Below, piece after piece: positions 2,761-17,911 of a stretch of 20,143 nt of DNA; the stretch's first letter is position 1; the number at the start of each line of letters is the position of its first letter. The stretch is from positions 1-20,143 of the IMG/VR virus record IMGVR_UViG_3300029908_000187. One strand, written 5' to 3'. Below the pieces are notes generated by a model. It was not told where the DNA came from and did no database searches. It saw only the letters and a list, made by a program, of their open reading frames with translations. Made by a program: the position numbers and the translations under genes. The stretch is from a virus.

Positions 2761-3620
2761 TGGCTAATTTTTTACATTCCAAGACCTATAATGGCGGAAC
2801 GGTATATCCCGTTCATGCATTAGAAACATCTGGTCTTTTACGTAGAGCGGAACCTCTCTTAACACCCGAACAATTGGTGTCAAGGTTTCTAAAAGGTATT
2901 CCATTGATGTTCAGAAATGGTGATGTTTTTACCGCAGACGAACTCAAAGATCGAATAAATCTTGCCATAAATACAGCTGAATTACTGTTGGGTAGAAATA
3001 TCACACGAGAAGCTTTCAATGAAAAAGCGCCGTTTGACTATAATCTTTACAAAGCATTTATTCACATTCACACAGAACATGGTCCAATCGTTAGTTTAGA
3101 AGAACTAGCCATTGTTAGTTCAGATAATCAAAATATATTCACGGTTCCTTCTCAATGGATAGAAGCTGCAAACTTTTCAAAAGGTTTAATTAACGTAATT
3201 CCTTTACTCGCAGCCTTTGGTACAAATCAAGTGGCTGGGAGTCCGGTTGGCCCATCTACGCCTGGTCAATTTGCCGCTGGCGGTATCGCATTTTTATCTA
3301 CACTGGGGCCTGGAAGTTCTGTTCCTGCTTACTGGGGTATCAAATATACTGCTGGATTGACAAGCGTAGAAGGTAAATATCCTATCCCTGTTAATGAATT
3401 GATCGGTTCCGTTGCTGCTATTGATATTTTAAGTGAAATTGCTGCTACTTTCTTTTTCACTTCTCAGTCATTAAGTCAAGATGGAATTGCACAAAGTTCG
3501 AGCGGCCCTGGCCCATTAGTATTTCAATTGCGTATTCAAGAGCTTATGCTCAAAAGAGATGAATTGGTTAGGAAATTAAAAGGAATTTTCGGTTCGAAGT
3601 ATTTTATCTCCAACATCTAA
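2760..3620 (+). CDS. Putative virion structural protein, function unknown
   Basis: The start at 2760 gives 286 residues. An ATG at 2751 in the same frame is less likely because 2760 uses the TAATG junction with the previous stop and has GGATG at usable spacing. The protein has an amphipathic helical N-terminal part (LLTPEQLVSRFLKGIPL), a Gly/Pro/Ser-rich centre (about residues 160-195) and a C-terminal helix with alternating charge (RIQELMLKRDELVRKLKG) that is probably a coiled coil. The segment LSQDGIAQSSSGPGP precedes it. No enzyme motif is visible. Position and composition suggest a head or neck component, but I do not recognise a named family. Confidence 0.65.
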   Translation: MANFLHSKTYNGGTVYPVHALETSGLLRRAEPLLTPEQLVSRFLKGIPLMFRNGDVFTADELKDRINLAINTAELLLGRNITREAFNEKAPFDYNLYKAFIHIHTEHGPIVSLEELAIVSSDNQNIFTVPSQWIEAANFSKGLINVIPLLAAFGTNQVAGSPVGPSTPGQFAAGGIAFLSTLGPGSSVPAYWGIKYTAGLTSVEGKYPIPVNELIGSVAAIDILSEIAATFFFTSQSLSQDGIAQSSSGPGPLVFQLRIQELMLKRDELVRKLKGIFGSKYFISNI

Positions 3621-3633
3621 AAAGTGTTATATT

Positions 3634-5187
3634 ATGGGAATGGCTAAGGGAATCAAATCAGCGCTAAAGGATCATAAGGAAAAGATCCAAGGGCCTCATT
3701 TCTTATTCTCAGCTGAAAATCCTAAGCATCCTGAAAAGAATGAACTTAAGATGGATCACAACCAAGTTCTTGGTCATTTAAGGGGAGCAGGTCACGATGC
3801 TCATTCTGTAAATGGTCATTATGGTGCTCCTGAAAAAAGTATAGCAGTGTATGGAGTTTCACCGGAACATGCAGAAAAATTACATGGTGTAGCATCAAAG
3901 CTAGGTCAAGATAGCTCCATTTATTCTACTGGTAAAAAACACGAGATGAGATTTCATCACGGCAACGATGCAGGTAAAAAAGTTCATGGCGAAGGTACTG
4001 TCTGGCATAAAGAGAAACCTAAAGATATGTTTACTACTTTGCCTGGGGGTAGGGACCATTTTACTCATAACTTTGATTTTGATAAGTCTGAGTCTGGAAT
4101 GGAAGATTACAAGGAATTTAAGAAATCTGAAAAAGAAAGTCCAAAAGAAAGCCTAAAGGCTGGGGACAAAATCCCACAGTGTTACAAAGAAGAGGCAAGT
4201 AAAGGCTTTGACGTTCTTTTTCGAGTTAAAATTAAAGGCGAAGATAAGTTAACGGATGGCATTTATCTTCACATGTCTCTTAAAATTTTCAAAGATCGAA
4301 AAGAATTCGATCTTGAAGAAATAAAGAAAATAGTAAAAGACTACAATATCGCTCCTCCTCCGGTAAAAGATTTACATTTCAAAACTACCATCTTAAAATC
4401 TGAGCGAAATGGTCAAGAATATCATATGCTAATTATCGAAGGACTCGATGATAAATATAAAAAACTCTATGATCATTTTAAAGATGTTGGGACCGTATAC
4501 AAGAAATTCTTAGCCCATATCACTATCAACAAATCTATTTATGATGATATCGAAAAAAATGGTCTAAAACCTGAAGATGTTAAGTTTGGTCCTCTTCTGA
4601 TTGAAGCAGGTCCTGGCAACACAATATGCCGCCTCGGAAAATCAGAAGATCTTGAAAAAGGTTTTAAAAATAAACTTGCTTCCGTGGCGTTGGGCACAGC
4701 AGGCTTACTCTCCAATCCCGCTAATACTCCAGCACCTCAAGCTCCTAAAATGAATCCGACTCCTAGCGCTTATTCTACTCAAAAAATGTTACGTACTATT
4801 GCTTCTGTTGAAAGCAATAACGGAAAAAACATGAATCACAAGCCTACAGCGCATGGCACAGCTTACGGCAAATGGGCATTGATGCCGGACACTATTCACG
4901 AAACCATTAACATGAGCCCTAAACTAAAGGCTAAGTATGGTAAAGCGACCAAGTTACAAGGCCAAGACTTACAGCATTATATGCAAGATAATCCAGGCTT
5001 AGAGGATCAAGTTGCAGAACAACACATTAAAAGACTAGAGCATCATTTCGGTCAAGACCCAAAGAAAATAGGGTACGGCTGGAATCAAGGTATAACCGGT
5101 ACAAATAGGGCATTGAAAGAAAAAAAAGATATTGATTCTCATCCCTATACGCAAAAGATATTAAATGATTGGTCAAAGGAAAAATAA
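3634..5187 (+). CDS. Multidomain protein: N-terminal phage domain, 2H-phosphoesterase-like domain, lysozyme-like C-terminus
   Basis: A 517-residue protein with at least three parts. Residues 20-150 form a His-rich domain with FSAENPKHPEKNE, LRGAGHDAHSVNG and a late FTHNFDFDK, resembling small phage domains of the DUF3293 kind (tentative). Residues about 190-335 carry the two HxS/T motifs of the 2H phosphoesterase superfamily, YLHMSLKI (H213, S215) and LAHITINK (H295, T297), 82 residues apart. Residues about 375-517 look like a lytic transglycosylase/lysozyme: IASVESNNG with candidate catalytic E393, GTAYGKWALMPDT, and IGYGWNQGITGTNRAL. A low-complexity Ala/Pro linker (350-378) separates the last two. 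Known 2H enzymes cleave or ligate cyclic phosphodiesters; the lysozyme-like part could open peptidoglycan during entry. ATG at 3640 is an alternative start; neither has a strong ribosome binding site. Confidence 0.6.
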   Translation: MGMAKGIKSALKDHKEKIQGPHFLFSAENPKHPEKNELKMDHNQVLGHLRGAGHDAHSVNGHYGAPEKSIAVYGVSPEHAEKLHGVASKLGQDSSIYSTGKKHEMRFHHGNDAGKKVHGEGTVWHKEKPKDMFTTLPGGRDHFTHNFDFDKSESGMEDYKEFKKSEKESPKESLKAGDKIPQCYKEEASKGFDVLFRVKIKGEDKLTDGIYLHMSLKIFKDRKEFDLEEIKKIVKDYNIAPPPVKDLHFKTTILKSERNGQEYHMLIIEGLDDKYKKLYDHFKDVGTVYKKFLAHITINKSIYDDIEKNGLKPEDVKFGPLLIEAGPGNTICRLGKSEDLEKGFKNKLASVALGTAGLLSNPANTPAPQAPKMNPTPSAYSTQKMLRTIASVESNNGKNMNHKPTAHGTAYGKWALMPDTIHETINMSPKLKAKYGKATKLQGQDLQHYMQDNPGLEDQVAEQHIKRLEHHFGQDPKKIGYGWNQGITGTNRALKEKKDIDSHPYTQKILNDWSKEK

Positions 5188-5699: not shown

Positions 5700-6053
5700 A
5701 TGTGCGTCAAGTTCAAAAAAGAAAGCGCAGTGATTACGTATGATGTGGATCAGCCATTAGAGATGCAGATGGACGGCGCACATGAGGTTATCGTAGATTA
5801 TAAGCCACGCGATGCTTCCGTCATTAAGTTCGTAAAAGAAATAGAACGCATGACCAAAGAAGGCCTGGAAGAGTATCCAAGTATAACCGTTAGACACAAT
5901 AATCATATTACTGGTGCTAAATTGAAGAAAAAAGTTCAAAAGATATCACAAGATATTACTTTGAATAAATTAATGAAATTAATGGCTCTCTCTCATTACG
6001 AAGCAGATCGTAAACTTGAAGAGATGGTCACTATGTGCATAGACAGGAAATAA
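5700..6053 (+). CDS. Small protein of unknown function
   Basis: A 117-residue protein with mixed charge, starting at a TAATATG junction with the gene before it. GTGGATCG about 12 bases upstream is at best a weak ribosome binding site, so coupled translation is likely. The first half is predicted strand-rich (AVITYDVDQPLEMQMDG, HEVIVDYKPR), the second half helical (LKKKVQKISQDITLNKLMKLM). Three methionine-rich helical turns end in ALSHYEADRKLEEMVTM. I do not recognise the family and no catalytic motif is evident. Codon usage resembles its neighbours and the junctions fit a co-translated cluster. Confidence 0.6.
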   Translation: MCVKFKKESAVITYDVDQPLEMQMDGAHEVIVDYKPRDASVIKFVKEIERMTKEGLEEYPSITVRHNNHITGAKLKKKVQKISQDITLNKLMKLMALSHYEADRKLEEMVTMCIDRK

Positions 6054-6056
6054 GCG

Positions 6057-6980
6057 ATGTCTAAACGAATCCCAAATGGCGAACAAGTTGATGCAATCAC
6101 TCCGTTTGCCCCATTAGTGCAGGAATCATTTGACCTACAGCGTCAGGATGTATTTGTAACTAGCTTGGGTGTTGACTTTACTCACTGGCGAGCTATGCCC
6201 AGTCCTATAGGTCAAAAAGATCGAGGAGACTATCGCAGAAGCGATGGTGTTGATACAATAACCTCAAATGGCATGATTTACACTTGTGCTGGAAAATTCA
6301 CAGGTACTATAACAGATAACACACGTAAGGGTGGCAGATCAGACGGAGGTCTTCTAGATCCTTCCGAAAGCCGGCTAGTTTTACCAAGATTCTATAACCT
6401 GACAGGTCAAGCTGATGGGCCGAGAATCTATCTTGCCCCTGGCGATCGCGTATACATTTCTGATCCTGATGCGGATGTTAAGGTGTCAAACTACCATAAG
6501 ATGGACTATGAAGACGGCGTTGACAATGTCCCCATGTTTCCTATTTGTCAACTGGAAGCTCCGATCGTAGATAGTAGAAATACTGAGTATATTCAAGGAG
6601 TTGACTTTGCATTAACCAGTGATGGAAATATTCGTTGGATATCTGGTGGTAAAAATCCCGGAATTGATCCTGATACAGGAAAGGGTCGTATATATACAAT
6701 ACGTTATCTTTACAAAGCTTATTGGTACGTTACAGCCATTCCAAAAGAAGTTCGCATTACAAATGTAACTGAGGGTGGCGTTAGAGCGCCTGCTAGAATG
6801 CCCTATTATTGTGTAATTGTGCGGGAGTATATTTTTCACAATATGAATCGTGGAGATGTCAACAATCAACTCAAATCAAAAACACCAAAAAGGGTTGACA
6901 AAGGGCCTGTAGAATCGATAAATCCTGCTAACCCTACAATAAATGTAGACATGACCGATTATGAGGATGTAGATGAGTAA
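6057..6980 (+). CDS. Putative virion structural protein (head, neck or baseplate)
   Basis: A 307-residue protein, mainly beta-strand in character with many Gly, Asp, Tyr and Arg residues and no hydrophobic segments. Notable parts are DVFVTSLGVDFTHWRAMPSP (31-50), a DNTRKGGRSDGG loop, and a compact C-terminal core with YTIRYLYKAYWYVTAIPKE followed by RMPYYCVIVREYIFHN. A disordered tail rich in Asp and Pro closes it. Such proteins occur among myovirus neck and baseplate genes, but I cannot tie this one to a named family. The following HNH gene starts inside its last codons (8-nt overlap), and the protein itself looks complete. Confidence 0.65.
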   Translation: MSKRIPNGEQVDAITPFAPLVQESFDLQRQDVFVTSLGVDFTHWRAMPSPIGQKDRGDYRRSDGVDTITSNGMIYTCAGKFTGTITDNTRKGGRSDGGLLDPSESRLVLPRFYNLTGQADGPRIYLAPGDRVYISDPDADVKVSNYHKMDYEDGVDNVPMFPICQLEAPIVDSRNTEYIQGVDFALTSDGNIRWISGGKNPGIDPDTGKGRIYTIRYLYKAYWYVTAIPKEVRITNVTEGGVRAPARMPYYCVIVREYIFHNMNRGDVNNQLKSKTPKRVDKGPVESINPANPTINVDMTDYEDVDE

Positions 6981-7563
6981 GTCCTGCGTAAAATGTCTAG
7001 AATTTAAAGATTTGTCATTTTTTTCTCTGCAAACAGCAAAAAAGGACAAAAGAGACTCCTATTGCAAAATATGTAGAAATGAAATATCTAGACAGTTTTA
7101 TATAAATCACAGAGAAGATCAGATAAAAAGAACAAAAAAGTATCAATCTGAACATGTGGAAGAACTTCAATTACATAGAAAAGAAAATATACAAAAATTT
7201 AATGCTTATCAAGCTTCTTATGCAAGAAAACGACGCAAAAATGATCCTCTTTTTAAATTAAAGAGTAGTTTACGTAGAAATACTTCAGAAATTTTTAGGG
7301 GAAAAATACACAAAAGAACATTGGAATTGCTTGGATGTTCTTTTGAAGAAGCTAAAAAACATTTAGAGTCATTATTCAAATGTGATATGAACTGGGACAA
7401 CTATGGCTTTTATGGTTGGCACATCGATCATATTATCCCTTTAGCATCGGCTAAAACACAGGAAGAGCTTGAAAAACTCTGTCATTACACTAATTTACAG
7501 CCTCTCTGGGCTAAAGAAAACCTCATTAAATCCGATAAGATGCCTTTGGAAGGTAATCTTTAA
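6973..7563 (+). CDS. HNH homing-type endonuclease
   Basis: This 196-residue protein has an N-terminal zinc-finger pattern (C5, C8, C31, C34), a long basic helical middle rich in Lys and Arg (residues 40-120) for DNA binding, and a C-terminal HNH nuclease: GWHIDHIIPL (H150, D152, H153), TNLQPLWAKEN (N174) and ENLIKSDK (N183). This is the layout of free-standing phage homing endonucleases, which cut DNA lacking the gene and promote its spread. The start overlaps the previous stop by 8 bases (ATGAGTAA). The flanking genes are not split, so it is an intergenic insertion rather than an intron. The composition is more AT- and Lys-rich than its neighbours, in line with separate ancestry. Confidence 0.88.
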   Translation: MSKSCVKCLEFKDLSFFSLQTAKKDKRDSYCKICRNEISRQFYINHREDQIKRTKKYQSEHVEELQLHRKENIQKFNAYQASYARKRRKNDPLFKLKSSLRRNTSEIFRGKIHKRTLELLGCSFEEAKKHLESLFKCDMNWDNYGFYGWHIDHIIPLASAKTQEELEKLCHYTNLQPLWAKENLIKSDKMPLEGNL

Positions 7564-8066: not shown

Positions 8067-9059
8067 ATGGCTTCTAATGCAGATTTCTTTTTAAATAAGA
8101 CCTTGGGTAAGGATTTTATGGAATCCTTGGCTAAAGTAGAGCTATGGAAACCGGGTACTCGCTCGACCATAGATCATGAAGAAATACGAACTGCTCTTCA
8201 AATTGTTCCTCGTACTATTCTAAGCATGCTAATCAAAGAATTGGCCCCAATGAATATTGGCGAAACTAAAGAAGTGCAGCTCATGCTTCCGGGTAACGCA
8301 ATGATGCGCGTTACAAAGCACGAACGAGATGTCTTTTCTGGTGACATTGAACAAGAAAATAAAAAAGTTGTAGATTTCAAATTTCGCTCAATTCCTGGTA
8401 TTGGCCTAGTTATCATGAGTGCTTTTGAACTTTATGATCAAGCCAATCTCATAAATACGCCTGCGGTAGAGCCGGATGTAGCGGATAAAATACACAAACT
8501 TATCGATGAGCGTATGGCTATGCACGATCTTGTTGGAAAAGTTATTGATAAGAAGCTAATGGAAAAAGATGCAATCGAAAAGCTTCTTATGATGAAGCTT
8601 ACTGAAGCAATGGCACATCAAGAGAAAAAACTAGATAAAATAGTTGAAATAACAAAGATTAATGAACAAACTACTCCTGACCCTAGCGAGTATCATCGCG
8701 GAATGACTAATGGTCTAAAAGTGGCTGAATCAATAGCTACCGATAAAGAACCTACATTTTTAGAACCCAAAAAAGATAAGGGTTCAAAACAGCTTAAAGA
8801 ATTTTTTGAAAAAAGAGAAAAAAAGCTAAAAAAGAACGAATTCAAGATCGAAATGATCAAGGGTGAACAAGTTGATTGCCCTGATTGTGGTAAAAACATA
8901 TTTGATGGAAATGTGTTTAGTAGTTGTATTTGCTATGGAGATTGTGGTAAAGTATACCTAAAGAAGACAGAAACTGGCGTAAAAATCAGATTTGGTAAAA
9001 ATTGGGATGTTGATAATATGGCGATGCTTTTAGAAATACTTAGGAGGAGACATGGATAA
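8067..9059 (+). CDS. Phage protein with C-terminal zinc-binding motif, function unknown
   Basis: A 330-residue protein. The N-terminal 130 residues look globular, with LWKPGTRSTIDHEEIRTAL and a hydrophobic IPGIGLVIMSAFELYDQ. The centre (135-200) is a long charged helix rich in Lys, Glu and Met that probably forms a coiled coil, followed by a Lys-rich linker. The C-terminus has CPDC (C271, C274) and CICYGDC (C287, C289, C293), likely a zinc site, and ends in FGKNWDVDNMAMLLEILRR. I do not know a function for it. The preceding AGGGGC is a reasonable ribosome binding site. The next gene, an HNH nuclease, starts 8 bases before this stop, and this gene is not truncated by it. Confidence 0.65.
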   Translation: MASNADFFLNKTLGKDFMESLAKVELWKPGTRSTIDHEEIRTALQIVPRTILSMLIKELAPMNIGETKEVQLMLPGNAMMRVTKHERDVFSGDIEQENKKVVDFKFRSIPGIGLVIMSAFELYDQANLINTPAVEPDVADKIHKLIDERMAMHDLVGKVIDKKLMEKDAIEKLLMMKLTEAMAHQEKKLDKIVEITKINEQTTPDPSEYHRGMTNGLKVAESIATDKEPTFLEPKKDKGSKQLKEFFEKREKKLKKNEFKIEMIKGEQVDCPDCGKNIFDGNVFSSCICYGDCGKVYLKKTETGVKIRFGKNWDVDNMAMLLEILRRRHG

Positions 9060-9564
9060 TTTAAAAATTTGTAAAATTTGTGAAATACCTATGCCCACTG
9101 ACAGTTTTAGAATTTCTAAAAAAACTGGTAAATTGTTAAATCCTTGTCGATTATGTTGGTTGGAAAACAGAAAAAAGAGCAATCTTAAGGGTTTAAAACA
9201 AAACAATGCGACTAAAAAACGCTGGGCTGAAGAAAATAAAGAAAAAGTAAAAATTTCCAGAAAAAAATGGAAAGAAGCAAATATAGGCAAGGTCAATGCA
9301 GACCATGCTTATGGAAAATTAAGAATTAAGCAAGCTACTCCGCCATGGCTAACTAAGGAACAAAAACAAGTCATAGAATTTTATTATATGATGGCATCGC
9401 TTAGAACTAAAATGTTTGGAATCCCGTATCACGTGGATCACATCGTCCCTATTCGTGGTGAAAATGTTTCTGGTTTAAATGTGCCTTGGAATTTAGAAAC
9501 TATTCCAGCAAAAGAAAATATTGAAAAATCAAATAAATTATTACCCCATAGATTGAAAATCTAA
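9052..9564 (+). CDS. Second HNH homing-type endonuclease
   Basis: This 170-residue protein has an N-terminal zinc pattern (C7, C10, C32, C35), a very basic central helix (residues 40-80) and a C-terminal HNH nuclease with YHVDHIVPIRG (H127, D129, H130), VPWNLETIPAKEN (N147) and ENIEKSNK (N156). The spacing differs from the first HNH gene, and the two are only distantly similar outside the core. The start overlaps the previous stop by 8 bases (ATGGATAA), the same geometry as at 6973. The next gene follows through TAATATG. It is strongly Lys-rich and AT-rich. An intergenic homing endonuclease is the likely role. Confidence 0.88.
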   Translation: MDNLKICKICEIPMPTDSFRISKKTGKLLNPCRLCWLENRKKSNLKGLKQNNATKKRWAEENKEKVKISRKKWKEANIGKVNADHAYGKLRIKQATPPWLTKEQKQVIEFYYMMASLRTKMFGIPYHVDHIVPIRGENVSGLNVPWNLETIPAKENIEKSNKLLPHRLKI

Positions 9565-9565
9565 T

Positions 9566-11107
9566 ATGGAATTAAATAATTTACTATACATTGCTTATGA
9601 TGCAGATAATGCCGGTAGAAAAATAGGTAGAGCTATACTTGCTGATGATCCTGAGCAGCTTAAACAAGATTCCGAGCGCATTGAGCTTGGAAACGAAATT
9701 GTGGCCGAATGGGCAAACAAATGGGGCGGTGTATCCTATTCTTCTGGTGGTGACCAGGGGCTATTCTCTGCCCCGCAAGAAGCCTTAGAAGAGCTTGAGC
9801 AACTACGCAACGATTATCAATTCGCTACCAATTTAACAATGACTGTAGGTGTTGGTGCTAGTCTATCCGAAGCTGGTAAAGCGCTCATGGTTGGCAAATT
9901 TCGTGGTAAAAATATGATTGTCATTTATGATGGCAATGTTGAAAAAGAAGTAGATCAAGCTCAAGAAAATGTTACCAATGGTACCGCTTCTGATGAAGAA
10001 AGAAAGCTTGCTGAAGCTTATCTTAAACCTGAAAATGGCGAAGCGAAGCCTCCCGAAGAACAATTAGAAGATTACGCAAAAGCTGGTTTGATGCCTCCCC
10101 AAATTGGAAAACCAGATCCCAAAAAAGAGCCAAAACAAGAAGTGAATGATATTATGGAAACTCGTAGTAAGAACAATCACCCTGACCCTGATGAGAAGGA
10201 AAATGCTCAAGATAGGAAGATTGAATCCAATGATCAGGTTGCTGAAGATAAGCACTCCGAAGCTGCTATGAGATCAATTGCTCAGGCAATTGAAGGGGAC
10301 GAAAAACCAGGGCAAACTGTTAAAGATCAGCTGAGTCATGTTGATGACGAAGATATGGCTATTGGTGATGAAACTGAAGGCAATACTAGCCGACCTGACG
10401 GATTTAAAGATCAAAACAAACCAGGCGATATGGGTCTTTCCGAAGATGAAGTTCCTGAAGAGTCACCTGATTTAAGCTCGGTTTTAAAAGATGGGCTTGA
10501 TAGTCATGCCGATAACATGCAAAGAGATAAAGTTATCAATATGGTATCTGCAGCTCTTGCTGGGTTCAAGTCAAACAAACATATATTAGAACGTGCCAAA
10601 GACAAGGCGCCAGAGTTGTATAATTCGTGCCTTTCAATGCTTAAGGCAATGATCGAAATGACCAAGATGCTTGGTTTGGGTCAACAAGAAAACGAAGAAG
10701 ATCCTACTGAAGATCAAAATAAAGAGATATCCTCTGATCCTTCTGAGGCAGAAACAATGCCCAACGAATACGCGGATCAAACTGATCAAGAAGAACAAGC
10801 CTCTGCTTATGGTAGCCCTACTGTTGAAAATGATGAACAGCAAGATGCAGAGCATGATTCAGATAGCTGTCCTTATTGTCAGGCTCCTGAAAAAGAACAC
10901 GATGAAGATGATTGCCCTTACTGTCAAGATCCAGAGGAAGATTGCCCACATTGTGTAGCGATGGAAGATCAAGCTGCTTCTAGCAATCCAGCCGCTTCAC
11001 AAAATTCTCCAAAATCTGATGATGATTCATCTGATCCAAATCCTGCAAAGAAAAAGCCAGCTGCACCTTCGGAGGGCGATAAAAGCCCAAAAGCGATGGG
11101 GCGATAG
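9566..11107 (+). CDS. GGDEF/CRISPR-polymerase-like palm domain protein with acidic linker and CxxC knuckles
   Basis: A 513-residue protein. Residues 5-130 match the nucleotidyl-cyclase palm shared by GGDEF diguanylate cyclases, Cas10 and minimal CRISPR polymerases (mCpol): LLYIAYDADNAGRKIGRAI with D12 and D14 in the first metal-binding strand, SSGGDQGLFSAP (G61, G62, D63) for the GGDEF/GGDD turn, TMTVGVGASLSEAGKALMVG, and KFRGKNMIVIYDG, the counterpart of the K..GRN segment of GGDEF proteins. Position 64 is Gln where an acidic residue is usual, so activity may be changed or lost. Residues 140-320 and 372-435 are disordered and acidic, around a helical block (322-371). Three knuckles follow: CPYC (435-438), CPYC (450-453) and CPHC (460-463). 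Neighbours suggest a virion assembly role, for example scaffold-like. There is no clear ribosome binding site; the start uses a TAATATG junction. The end carries a frameshift signal. Confidence 0.7.
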   Translation: MELNNLLYIAYDADNAGRKIGRAILADDPEQLKQDSERIELGNEIVAEWANKWGGVSYSSGGDQGLFSAPQEALEELEQLRNDYQFATNLTMTVGVGASLSEAGKALMVGKFRGKNMIVIYDGNVEKEVDQAQENVTNGTASDEERKLAEAYLKPENGEAKPPEEQLEDYAKAGLMPPQIGKPDPKKEPKQEVNDIMETRSKNNHPDPDEKENAQDRKIESNDQVAEDKHSEAAMRSIAQAIEGDEKPGQTVKDQLSHVDDEDMAIGDETEGNTSRPDGFKDQNKPGDMGLSEDEVPEESPDLSSVLKDGLDSHADNMQRDKVINMVSAALAGFKSNKHILERAKDKAPELYNSCLSMLKAMIEMTKMLGLGQQENEEDPTEDQNKEISSDPSEAETMPNEYADQTDQEEQASAYGSPTVENDEQQDAEHDSDSCPYCQAPEKEHDEDDCPYCQDPEEDCPHCVAMEDQAASSNPAASQNSPKSDDDSSDPNPAKKKPAAPSEGDKSPKAMGR

Positions 11108-11116
11108 GAACGCCCC
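11071..11116 (+). promoter_or_regulatory. Predicted -1 programmed ribosomal frameshift signal
   Basis: In the zero frame (AGC CCA AAA GCG ATG GGG CGA TAG) the heptamer C CCA AAA occupies 11086-11092 and exactly fits X XXY YYZ. A Shine-Dalgarno-like GGAGGG lies at 11071-11076, nine bases upstream. After a 5-nt spacer (11093-11097) comes a 6-bp stem GGGGCG/CGCCCC (11098-11103, 11111-11116), and the zero-frame stop TAG (11105-11107) is in its 7-nt loop. This is the same arrangement as the well-known bacterial dnaX -1 site: upstream SD, slippery heptamer, downstream hairpin. Frameshifting itself is inferred. Confidence 0.75.
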
Positions 11117-11313
11117 TAGGTAAGTTACCCACCAAGCATACGACTCCCCACATAGCTAAAGACCCTATACCTCCTGGTGGTGTTAACGCTAAAGGTCAAA
11201 AAAAGGTTATCGATCCTCAAACGGGCAATGTTCGTTTCATTAATATGAAGGAAGGACGCGTAGCCAGTCCTAAAGGCATACCTGTTAAGCCTGGCAGTCC
11301 TGAATCACAATGA
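11086..11313 (+). CDS. -1 frame extension of the palm-domain protein (predicted 582-residue fusion)
   Basis: After slippage at C CCA AAA, reading continues AGC GAT GGG and so on for 73 codons to TGA at 11311-11313. The frame is closed just upstream by TAA at 11078-11080. Between that stop and an ATG at about codon 50 of the extension there is no ATG, GTG or TTG, so it has no usable start of its own. The peptide looks like real protein: KLPTKHTTPHIAKDPIPPGG, then NVRFINMKEGRVASPKGIPV, with about twice as many basic as acidic residues, in contrast to the acidic zero-frame end. Its TGA overlaps the start of the gene at 11310 (ATGA), a normal operon junction. Without it, 202 bases would be an unexplained gap. 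A sequencing indel or recent frameshift mutation is the main alternative. Confidence 0.7.
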   Translation, partial: PKSDGAIGTPLGKLPTKHTTPHIAKDPIPPGGVNAKGQKKVIDPQTGNVRFINMKEGRVASPKGIPVKPGSPESQ

Positions 11314-12065
11314 GTGGTCTTAAGATAAATATTGATGTATCTGCTCTAGCTTCGCATTTTAAAGATTTTATGCAAGAAGCTAAGGAAGATTTAGAGAAAG
11401 GTGTGGCCAATCTAGCTGCCATAACTCACGCCAAAGTTGCAGAATTGGCAGCTTCTGAGTTGAAGTCTACCAACAAAATATTTAGTGATAACTTAGGATT
11501 TGAAGAAATTTCAAGTGGAGTATGGGTTGTTAGCATTGATGAAGAAGCTCTCTTCATAGAAGATGGTATTGAAGCTAACATGGACATGAAGCCTGGGCTA
11601 TTGAAAAATGCCACGAAGACTTCTAAGGATGGACATAGATACCGAGTGATACCATTTGAGCATTCCAAAGGCCCTAGTCAAATGACACCGGCTTCTCAGC
11701 ATCTGGTTAGTATTTTAAAAGAAAAATTAAAACAGCATAAAGTGCCTTTTAAGAAAATTGAAAAAAATGCTGACGGTAGTCCTAAAGTAGGTAAATTACA
11801 CAGTTTAGATCTAGGTGGTCCTATTCCAGGTAAAGGAAATACACCTGGATTGAAGGGTGTAAGCATATATCAAACTGTTACTAAAACTGGAAACATTAGG
11901 CGCGATATAATGACCTTTAGGACAGTTTCTGGCGGTCCTGCCAGTTCAGGCAAATTTATACATCCGGGATTAACACCTAAGCACTTCCTTGATAGAGCAG
12001 CAGAATGGGCTCAAAATGAATGGGAACAATCAATTTTACCTGAAATTCTGAGCAAATACAAATAG
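11310..12065 (+). CDS. Putative neck/tail-completion protein (HK97 gp10-like)
   Basis: A 251-residue protein. It opens with a long amphipathic helix (HFKDFMQEAKEDLEKGVANL), followed by THAKVAELAASELKSTNKIF, then GVWVVSIDEEALFIEDG, KDGHRYRVIPFEH and, near the end, RRDIMTFRTVS, GKFIHPGLTPKHFLDRA and AAEWAQNEWEQSILPEIL. Helix, strands, a FIHPG element and a final helix are reminiscent of HK97 gp10/tail-completion proteins that sit at the head-tail joint. That comparison is from memory and partial. It starts through an ATGA overlap with the -1 frame extension, and it is followed by another likely connector gene before the sheath, which fits a neck role. Confidence 0.5.
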   Translation: MSGLKINIDVSALASHFKDFMQEAKEDLEKGVANLAAITHAKVAELAASELKSTNKIFSDNLGFEEISSGVWVVSIDEEALFIEDGIEANMDMKPGLLKNATKTSKDGHRYRVIPFEHSKGPSQMTPASQHLVSILKEKLKQHKVPFKKIEKNADGSPKVGKLHSLDLGGPIPGKGNTPGLKGVSIYQTVTKTGNIRRDIMTFRTVSGGPASSGKFIHPGLTPKHFLDRAAEWAQNEWEQSILPEILSKYK

Positions 12066-16927: not shown

Positions 16928-17419
16928 ATGGCAATTAATACAAGCCAAGGAACGCCTCCAGCACCAAATACATCACAAAAAGTGATGACTGGTGCACGGG
17001 CGCTCATTTACGTAAACAACGCTCTTTGCGGAGTTTATGAAACATGTTCATACACCGTTAGTTTTGGCACCGAGCCGATCCACATTCTTGGGCTATACAA
17101 TACTGCTGAAATCGCTATCACTAGCTACGAAGCTGTTACGTTGAATTGCTCTGGATTTCGCGTAGTCAATAACGGCCCTCACGTTTTGCCGGCCGTTCCT
17201 AAGATTCAAGATCTTTTGGCTTTGGAAGGTACTACGATTTCGGTTGTAGATCGTCAAACTGGCCTTAACATCCTTACCGCCATTGGTTGTGTTGTTACCG
17301 GCCATAGCGGAAGTTACAATGCTCGCGCTACAAGCCGAATCACTGTTAACTATACTGGACTAGTGTTGAGCGACGAATCCGGCGATCAAAACGATCCAGG
17401 TGCCGCAAACTTACCATAG
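16928..17419 (+). CDS. Tail tube protein
   Basis: A 163-residue, beta-rich protein directly after the sheath gene, the usual place for the tube subunit in contractile tails. It has the expected pattern: a flexible N-terminus (to about residue 20), a strand pair with ARALIYVNNALCGVYETCSY, a loop-helix region (LPAVPKIQDLLALEG) and final strands (ITVNYTGLVLSDE). Size is close to that of T4 gp19 (163 residues). Subunits form the hexameric rings of the inner tube through which DNA passes. AAAGGAG precedes the ATG at good spacing, and a strong terminator follows 28 bases after the stop. Family recognition rests on context plus fold pattern. Confidence 0.85.
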   Translation: MAINTSQGTPPAPNTSQKVMTGARALIYVNNALCGVYETCSYTVSFGTEPIHILGLYNTAEIAITSYEAVTLNCSGFRVVNNGPHVLPAVPKIQDLLALEGTTISVVDRQTGLNILTAIGCVVTGHSGSYNARATSRITVNYTGLVLSDESGDQNDPGAANLP

Positions 17420-17430
17420 TTTTGAGCTTT

Positions 17431-17442
17431 TATAGCGCTATA
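17431..17442. repeat. Perfect 12-bp palindrome
   Basis: TATAGCGCTATA between the tube stop codon and the terminator. It may be an extra stem ahead of the terminator or a protein-binding site. Confidence 0.5.
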
Positions 17443-17446
17443 GATT

Positions 17447-17486
17447 AAAGGCTGCCAGGGCGCTATGCGACCTAGGTAGCCTTTTT
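17447..17486 (+). terminator. Rho-independent terminator after the tail tube gene
   Basis: AAAGGCTGCC (17447-17456) pairs with GGTAGCCTTT (17475-17484) through ten base pairs with one G-T wobble, with inner AGG/CCT and CGC/GCG pairings closing the loop, followed by TTTTT and AGTTTTT. It ends the sheath-tube transcription unit. A CTTTTT-type end suggests little read-through. Confidence 0.88.
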
Positions 17487-17503
17487 AGTTTTTGAAAGGT
17501 AAT

Positions 17504-17911
17504 ATGTCTTCTACACCACTTGCTTCTCAGGCCAGCGCAGCTTCATTGGCTACGATGACTGCTATTGTAAATGCTGCCAATGCGGCTTGGATTGCTGATG
17601 CTAATACCATTATTACTAATCTGATGAATGTGCAAGGCAAATTTTCAGTCAGTTTGACTGTTACCAAACATGTATCTATAAGTGATATGGTGAATTACTT
17701 CAGAAACTTAGGTTACAACGTATTTGTACCACCTCAAACCCATGAATTTTCTGGTTTTGATTACGTCGGCGGATGGCAATTTGGCCCATTTTTCCCCTAC
17801 GATTGGTATATACCATTCCTGTATGAACGAAATTTTTGTAACTGTAAACAGCCTTGCCAATTGATCATTTCATGGCAACAACCCAATCCCTATCCGGGCG
17901 GTTGTCCTTAG
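17504..17911 (+). CDS. Small protein with aromatic and Cys-rich C-terminus, function unknown
   Basis: The start at 17504 (135 residues) follows GAAAGG at good spacing; a TTG further upstream at 17492 is less likely. The N-terminal half is an Ala-rich helix (LASQASAASLATMTAIVNAA) ending in NVQGKFSVSLTV. The C-terminal half is aromatic and Gly/Pro-rich (YVGGWQFGPFFPYDWYIPF) with cysteines at 112, 114, 118 and 134, perhaps a metal site. In composition it recalls the Cys-ending protein at 2278, but no homology is claimed. It stands alone between the tube terminator and a new promoter motif, so it may rely on residual read-through or a weak promoter of its own. Confidence 0.6.
   Translation: MSSTPLASQASAASLATMTAIVNAANAAWIADANTIITNLMNVQGKFSVSLTVTKHVSISDMVNYFRNLGYNVFVPPQTHEFSGFDYVGGWQFGPFFPYDWYIPFLYERNFCNCKQPCQLIISWQQPNPYPGGCP

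Follow-up and report, generated by a model that had tools for sequence, protein, structure and literature searches.

The window, by which we mean the whole 20,143-nt stretch of viral DNA analysed here, carries a gene whose zero-frame protein consists of an mCpol domain, an acidic low-complexity linker and a conserved helical segment, and near whose 3' end a second, overlapping frame opens. The features of the locus, with the evidence for each, are as follows.

9566-11107, plus strand: zero-frame mCpol gene, 513-residue short form (open reading frame list, PF18182, predicted fold)
9587-9928, plus strand: mCpol domain, residues 8-121 (PF18182, OptS alignment)
11071-11076, plus strand: Shine-Dalgarno (SD)-like GGAGGG, 9 nt 5' of the heptamer (sequence; anti-SD duplex -10.0 kcal/mol)
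11083-11107, plus strand: overlap of the zero and -1 open frames, 25 nt (TAA of the -1 frame at 11080, TAG of the zero frame at 11105)
11083-11313, plus strand: -1 open region encoding a basic C-terminal extension (frame reading, substitution pattern)
11086-11092, plus strand: slippery heptamer C CCA AAA in the zero frame, shift to CCC AAA (frame reading, relatives)
11093-11097, plus strand: 5-nt spacer from heptamer to stem (sequence)
11098-11103 with 11111-11116, plus strand: putative stimulatory hairpin GGGGCG/CGCCCC, 6 bp (folding, relatives)
11310-12065, plus strand: next gene, PHROG 16819 (function unknown), coupled to the extension's end (PHROG match; anchor for finding relatives)

Judged from its sequence and predicted fold, the gene product is an mCpol (Cas10-like palm) protein; cyclic nucleotide synthesis is undemonstrated. 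The window protein matches PF18182 (E 3e-11), a domain present in all 21 members scanned, and its N-terminal 120 residues also match solved OptS of the Panoptes system by sequence. An AlphaFold2 model of the domain (pLDDT 95.5) had Panoptes OptS as its best Foldseek match (TM 0.81/0.88). OptS makes the cyclic dinucleotide 2',3'-c-di-AMP using two metal-binding residues, Asp6 and Asp57 (PMC12657218), which correspond in the alignment to D12 and D63 of the window protein. Of the 21 members, all have D14 and only Myxococcus phage Mx1 has lost D63, but in the clade of relatives that uses the heptamer AAAAAAG the D12 position is Asn; catalysis is therefore not a safe assumption across the family. 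The acidic linker contains CPYC/CPHC cysteine repeats (10860-10955 in the window, repeated and longer in the relative L002), which are possibly zinc-binding knuckles.

The two-gene Panoptes operon with its membrane effector OptE was not found at this locus, where the neighbours are phage late genes. In the window the mCpol gene lies upstream of sheath- and tube-like genes, identified from sequence and synteny and not by a profile match; in Mx1 it lies upstream of the annotated sheath gene, and in one large relative it is found about 12 kb downstream of the major head protein gene. Mx1 also has a nucleotide-cyclase-type gene near its prohead protease (17173-17904, GGDEF, PF00990 E 1e-9), and thus two palm-domain genes in one late gene block. 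HNH-like frames, recognised by eye and without a Pfam match, flank late genes including mCpol in the window (9052-9564 and 6973-7563), and L002 has a different open reading frame and a GIY-YIG endonuclease in neighbouring positions (3111-3911 and 6719-7510); these flanks look like a homing endonuclease hot spot.

A first-pass annotation had placed four elements of a -1 frameshift signal in register at 11071-11116, and the SD-like element, heptamer, spacer and stem were each found there to base accuracy, with the zero-frame TAG (11105-11107) inside the 7-nt hairpin loop, ATAGGAA. The -1 frame has a TAA stop at 11080 and is then open from 11083 to the TGA at 11311-11313. Since the two frames overlap by only 25 nt, any shift is confined to those 25 nt, and CCCAAAA is the sole in-frame X XXY YYZ heptamer within them. 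A shift there would add 73 residues after Lys509, and the predicted forms of 513 and 582 residues given by the annotation agree with this frame reading (509 + 73). The junction-spanning peptide of the predicted long form is SPKSDGAIGTPLGK, and the tryptic peptide SDGAIGTPLGK is also expected.

How unusual this signal is depends on the scale at which it is examined. Two other in-frame X XXY YYZ heptamers occur in the gene's remaining 506 codons, and the chance of one such heptamer falling in the overlap is about 0.03. The SD match beats every other codon position of its own gene. Within the gene the downstream hairpin ranks among the top 1.4%, and a folding energy of -13.1 kcal/mol (z = -2.45) was computed for its 31-nt region; taken as a 50-55 nt segment, the structure is unexceptional (z about -0.8 to -1.0 with dinucleotide shuffling). 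On both strands of the window there are 246 X3Y3Z heptamers, and this is the only one that combines an SD core, at 4-17 nt on its 5' side, with a perfect 6-bp stem, at 5-8 nt on its 3' side, against 0.045 such combinations expected per shuffled window. The heptamer is the A-ending version, CCCAAAA; CCCAAAG is better documented. Rfam held no family that matched the signal. Two other readings of the same bases were set aside: the G_GGG tetramer at 11098-11101 as an alternative slip site, which lies inside the stem and was not seen in relatives, and the 11098-11116 hairpin as a minus-strand terminator, as which it also scores, the genes around it being on the plus strand.

When the full zero-frame protein was used as a query, no relatives were found in the viral collection, because most of the protein is of low complexity. 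Relatives were instead located through the conserved neighbour gene at 11310-12065, which gave about 35 loci. A gapped DNA pattern spanning the junction found no second copy of the window's phage, no relatives of the neighbour gene were found in bacterial genome contigs, and a plasmid search gave no match; the mCpol alignment was too diverse to be used as a query against bacterial contigs. Mx1 was the only named phage in which the gene turned up.

In 20 distinct loci, the window and 19 metagenomic phage contigs from many metagenomes, the -1 frame holds a homologous extension. The frames overlap by only 10-91 nt in these loci, and in all 20 an in-frame CCCAAAA, CCCAAAG or AAAAAAG lies inside the overlap. 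The combined p for this placement is about 1e-17 (20 loci, rows not independent), and combined values for the family signals run from 1e-14 to 1e-20; as the rows are related, such values overstate the case. Half of the relatives have AAAAAAG. The residues encoded by the heptamer differ by clade, Pro-Lys in one and Lys-Lys in the other, with slipperiness kept, which indicates that it is the slip that is conserved and not the peptide. Of the -1 motifs measured in E. coli, CCCAAAG and AAAAAAG belong to the most efficient or highly shift-prone types (PMC4066793, PMC5009743), and slippage on C_CCA_AAG reaches up to 54% (PMC4066793).

The stimulatory elements are kept to differing degrees. A hairpin begins 5-7 nt 3' of the heptamer in 19 of the 20 loci, and in 16 it is among the most stable 3.4% of sites in its own gene, even as hairpin sequences vary widely, from the 6 GC pairs of the window to a stem of 14 pairs in L015. 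Of 18 loci tested, 11 have an upstream SD-like element that falls in the strongest 4% of its gene, and a clear SD element is missing in about a third of relatives. These elements also bear on whether the second frame might be reached by slippage of RNA polymerase, in transcription, and not by the ribosome. The AAAAAAG clade does include relatives with runs of 6-7 A, but the runs of the window are of only 3 C and 4 A, and conserved hairpin spacing and SD-like elements are stimulators of ribosomes; we give transcriptional slippage hardly any credence.

Read in the -1 frame, the extension shows purifying selection. Substitutions fall mostly at third positions of that frame (17/12/39 at positions 1/2/3 between the window and L010), and for the same pair dN is 0.29 and dS 2.4. 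The conserved tail follows the pattern KLPTKxTTxHIAK...GAxNxKGQxKVxDxxTGKxRWI..., and the tails are basic, with a net charge of +6 to +18. Neither Pfam nor PHROG gave a significant match to the extension. Its structure model is a beta-hairpin of only moderate confidence, for which reason it was left out of the fold search. The extension stops -4 to +8 nt from the start of the next gene in 16 of the 20 loci, the TGA overlapping the ATG of that gene in the window (ATGA), and the zero-frame stop falls 189-334 nt short of the same start.

An overlap of a few bases resembles the arrangement of coupled genes, and the extension could on that account be a separate small gene, translated from a start of its own or by ribosomes that reinitiate past the TAG. 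Some relatives (e.g. L018 and L022) do have GTG or TTG codons early in the extension, but no early start is common to the family, and in the window none of ATG, GTG and TTG occurs in the extension before codon 54. The heptamer, moreover, is at every -1 locus, and five relatives have the extension fused in frame to the same protein. According to the first-pass annotation, homologues in which the extension was a gene with its own ATG would have refuted the frameshift; none were seen, and a separate gene is in our judgement an extremely improbable account of the locus.

Where the upstream gene can be followed, it is mostly of the same kind as in the window: the mCpol domain is visible at the N-terminus of the upstream frame in 17 of the 20 -1 loci, the contigs of L009 and L029 ending before the region and L025 seemingly lacking the domain. 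L025 (1773-3731) keeps the helical segment, heptamer and tail behind an unrelated N-terminus without visible mCpol, a pattern which, on sequence alone, suggests that the partner of the frameshift tail is the helical segment and not the cyclase fold. In L019 and L021 the region upstream of the neighbour gene showed neither an mCpol gene nor a tail on the same strand; apparently the mCpol gene has been lost, moved or replaced there.

Exceptions to the -1 arrangement are found among the relatives. The extension is in frame in four metagenomic forms (L002/L003, L008, L030 and L031) and in the distant Mx1; L032/L033 and L066 have it in the +1 frame and show no heptamer of the canonical -1 type. The same annotation had held that homologues with an in-frame extension would refute the frameshift as pointing to an indel; such homologues do occur, but they are a minority and scattered. 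In the window's part of the neighbour-protein tree, 20 of 26 rows have the -1 arrangement, and dispersed among them are all four of the in-frame forms from metagenomes together with the two +1 forms, from which it follows that the mode of expression has switched several times, in a direction that remains unresolved. The in-frame forms are what one would expect to meet if a single-base indel, be it an error of sequencing or assembly or a recent mutation that disables the gene, had split a continuous gene in the window contig. That explanation has to contend with the same -1 offset in 19 other distinct relatives from many metagenomes, always with a strong heptamer and usually with a hairpin at the same spacing, and with purifying selection on the extension past the junction. 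An indel or assembly error cannot explain a family with a -1 majority and scattered in-frame forms, whereas repeated switching can, and we regard the indel as very unlikely. There is a precedent, in phages with Ig-like tails, for one extension being expressed in a mixture of -1, +1 and in-frame modes (PMC5009743). Because in-frame and +1 relatives exist, a ratio of two products is not universal in the family.

Two of these exceptions show further features. The close relatives L032 (5774-5810) and L066 (2745-2785), and also L033, have in common the stretch CCCCACAG near the zero-frame stop, possibly a +1 (or -2) recoding site or else the result of indels. At the matching site (5760-5780) L008 still reads CCC AAA, there as ordinary codons in frame, which hints that frameshifting may have been lost there through an upstream length change.

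The comparison of homologous loci, which the first-pass annotation had said would support the frameshift if the heptamer, the downstream stem and frame-dependent substitution were kept, thus came out in its favour: a heptamer in 20 of 20 -1 loci, a hairpin 5-7 nt on in 19, and substitutions at third positions. With the signal, its spacing, its conservation across the family and coding selection on the tail all observed, we hold with high confidence that the gene at 9566-11313 yields two proteins by -1 programmed ribosomal frameshifting; slippage itself is inferred, there being no protein or reporter data. Signals of this type work on bacterial ribosomes. Most ribosomes would halt at the TAG at 11105 and release the 513-residue mCpol-type protein. 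A fraction, the size of which is likewise a matter of inference, would pause at C CCA AAA, aided by the upstream GGAGGG and by the GC hairpin 5 nt downstream, and the Pro and Lys tRNAs would re-pair one base back; translation in the -1 frame would then run to the TGA at 11311 and give the 582-residue form with its basic C-terminal tail.

The purpose of the shift is inferred from other phage proteins. By analogy with lambda gpG/gpGT or with frameshift-extended capsid proteins, it is most likely to place a basic interaction tail on a minority of the subunits of an oligomeric head-tail protein, where the tail would contact another component of assembly. A more speculative proposal, which we consider doubtful, is that the protein is a virion- or assembly-associated Cas10/mCpol nucleotide cyclase and that the frameshift sets the fraction with a basic anchoring tail; a second-messenger enzyme or sensor would then be held in the particle at a fixed dose, perhaps against host CBASS or Panoptes.

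The annotation knew of no such site in this kind of gene, and in the open-access literature, which was available only in part, we found no earlier description of frameshifting in this mCpol family. With this locus, a well-supported family joins the short list of frameshifted phage genes beyond the tail chaperone and the major capsid and tail proteins. It also places the cyclase-fold mCpol, so far studied as a bacterial anti-phage enzyme, in the late gene block of large phages; the hosts of the gene are little-known tailed phages, in which it lies among the head-tail genes. The mixture of -1, +1 and in-frame forms is a natural series on the gain and loss of recoding, and gene callers will drop about 60-115 residues from such proteins.

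Several known systems resemble the locus in part. Panoptes OptS, a bacterial anti-phage enzyme, shares mCpol by Pfam, sequence and predicted fold, with Asp6/Asp57 corresponding to D12/D63, but the window gene is in a phage late context with no OptE-like neighbour, and it has a long linker and a frameshifted tail. Gene 10 of T7/T3, Lactobacillus phage A2 and Listeria phages A118, A500 and PSA also put a C-terminal extension on part of a structural protein, and within this class of frameshift-extended phage structural proteins -1, +1 and in-frame versions are found among phages related to one another (PMC5009743). The proteins extended in these cases are those of the major capsid or the tail, a number of them with Ig-like tails, whereas the tail of the window is basic, has no Pfam or PHROG counterpart and is borne by an mCpol protein. 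The parallel drawn in the first-pass annotation with lambda gpG/gpGT, and so with tail assembly chaperones, is good for the strategy of expression, a -1 shift near the end of the frame of a phage late gene giving an extended minor form. It does not extend to the identity or position of the gene: no sequence relation was found, the domain in the window is mCpol, and the placement of G/GT between tube and tape measure is not shared, the mCpol gene lying upstream of the sheath- and tube-like genes. With E. coli dnaX (tau/gamma), to which the annotation likened the layout, the genes are unrelated, and the shift in dnaX occurs mid-gene and makes the shorter product, whereas here it occurs at the end of the zero frame and makes the longer one. 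The elements nevertheless match those of dnaX, namely an SD-like sequence about 10 nt upstream, an X XXY YYZ heptamer, a spacer of about 5 nt and a GC hairpin, and the heptamer of dnaX is AAAAAAG, as it is in half of the relatives.
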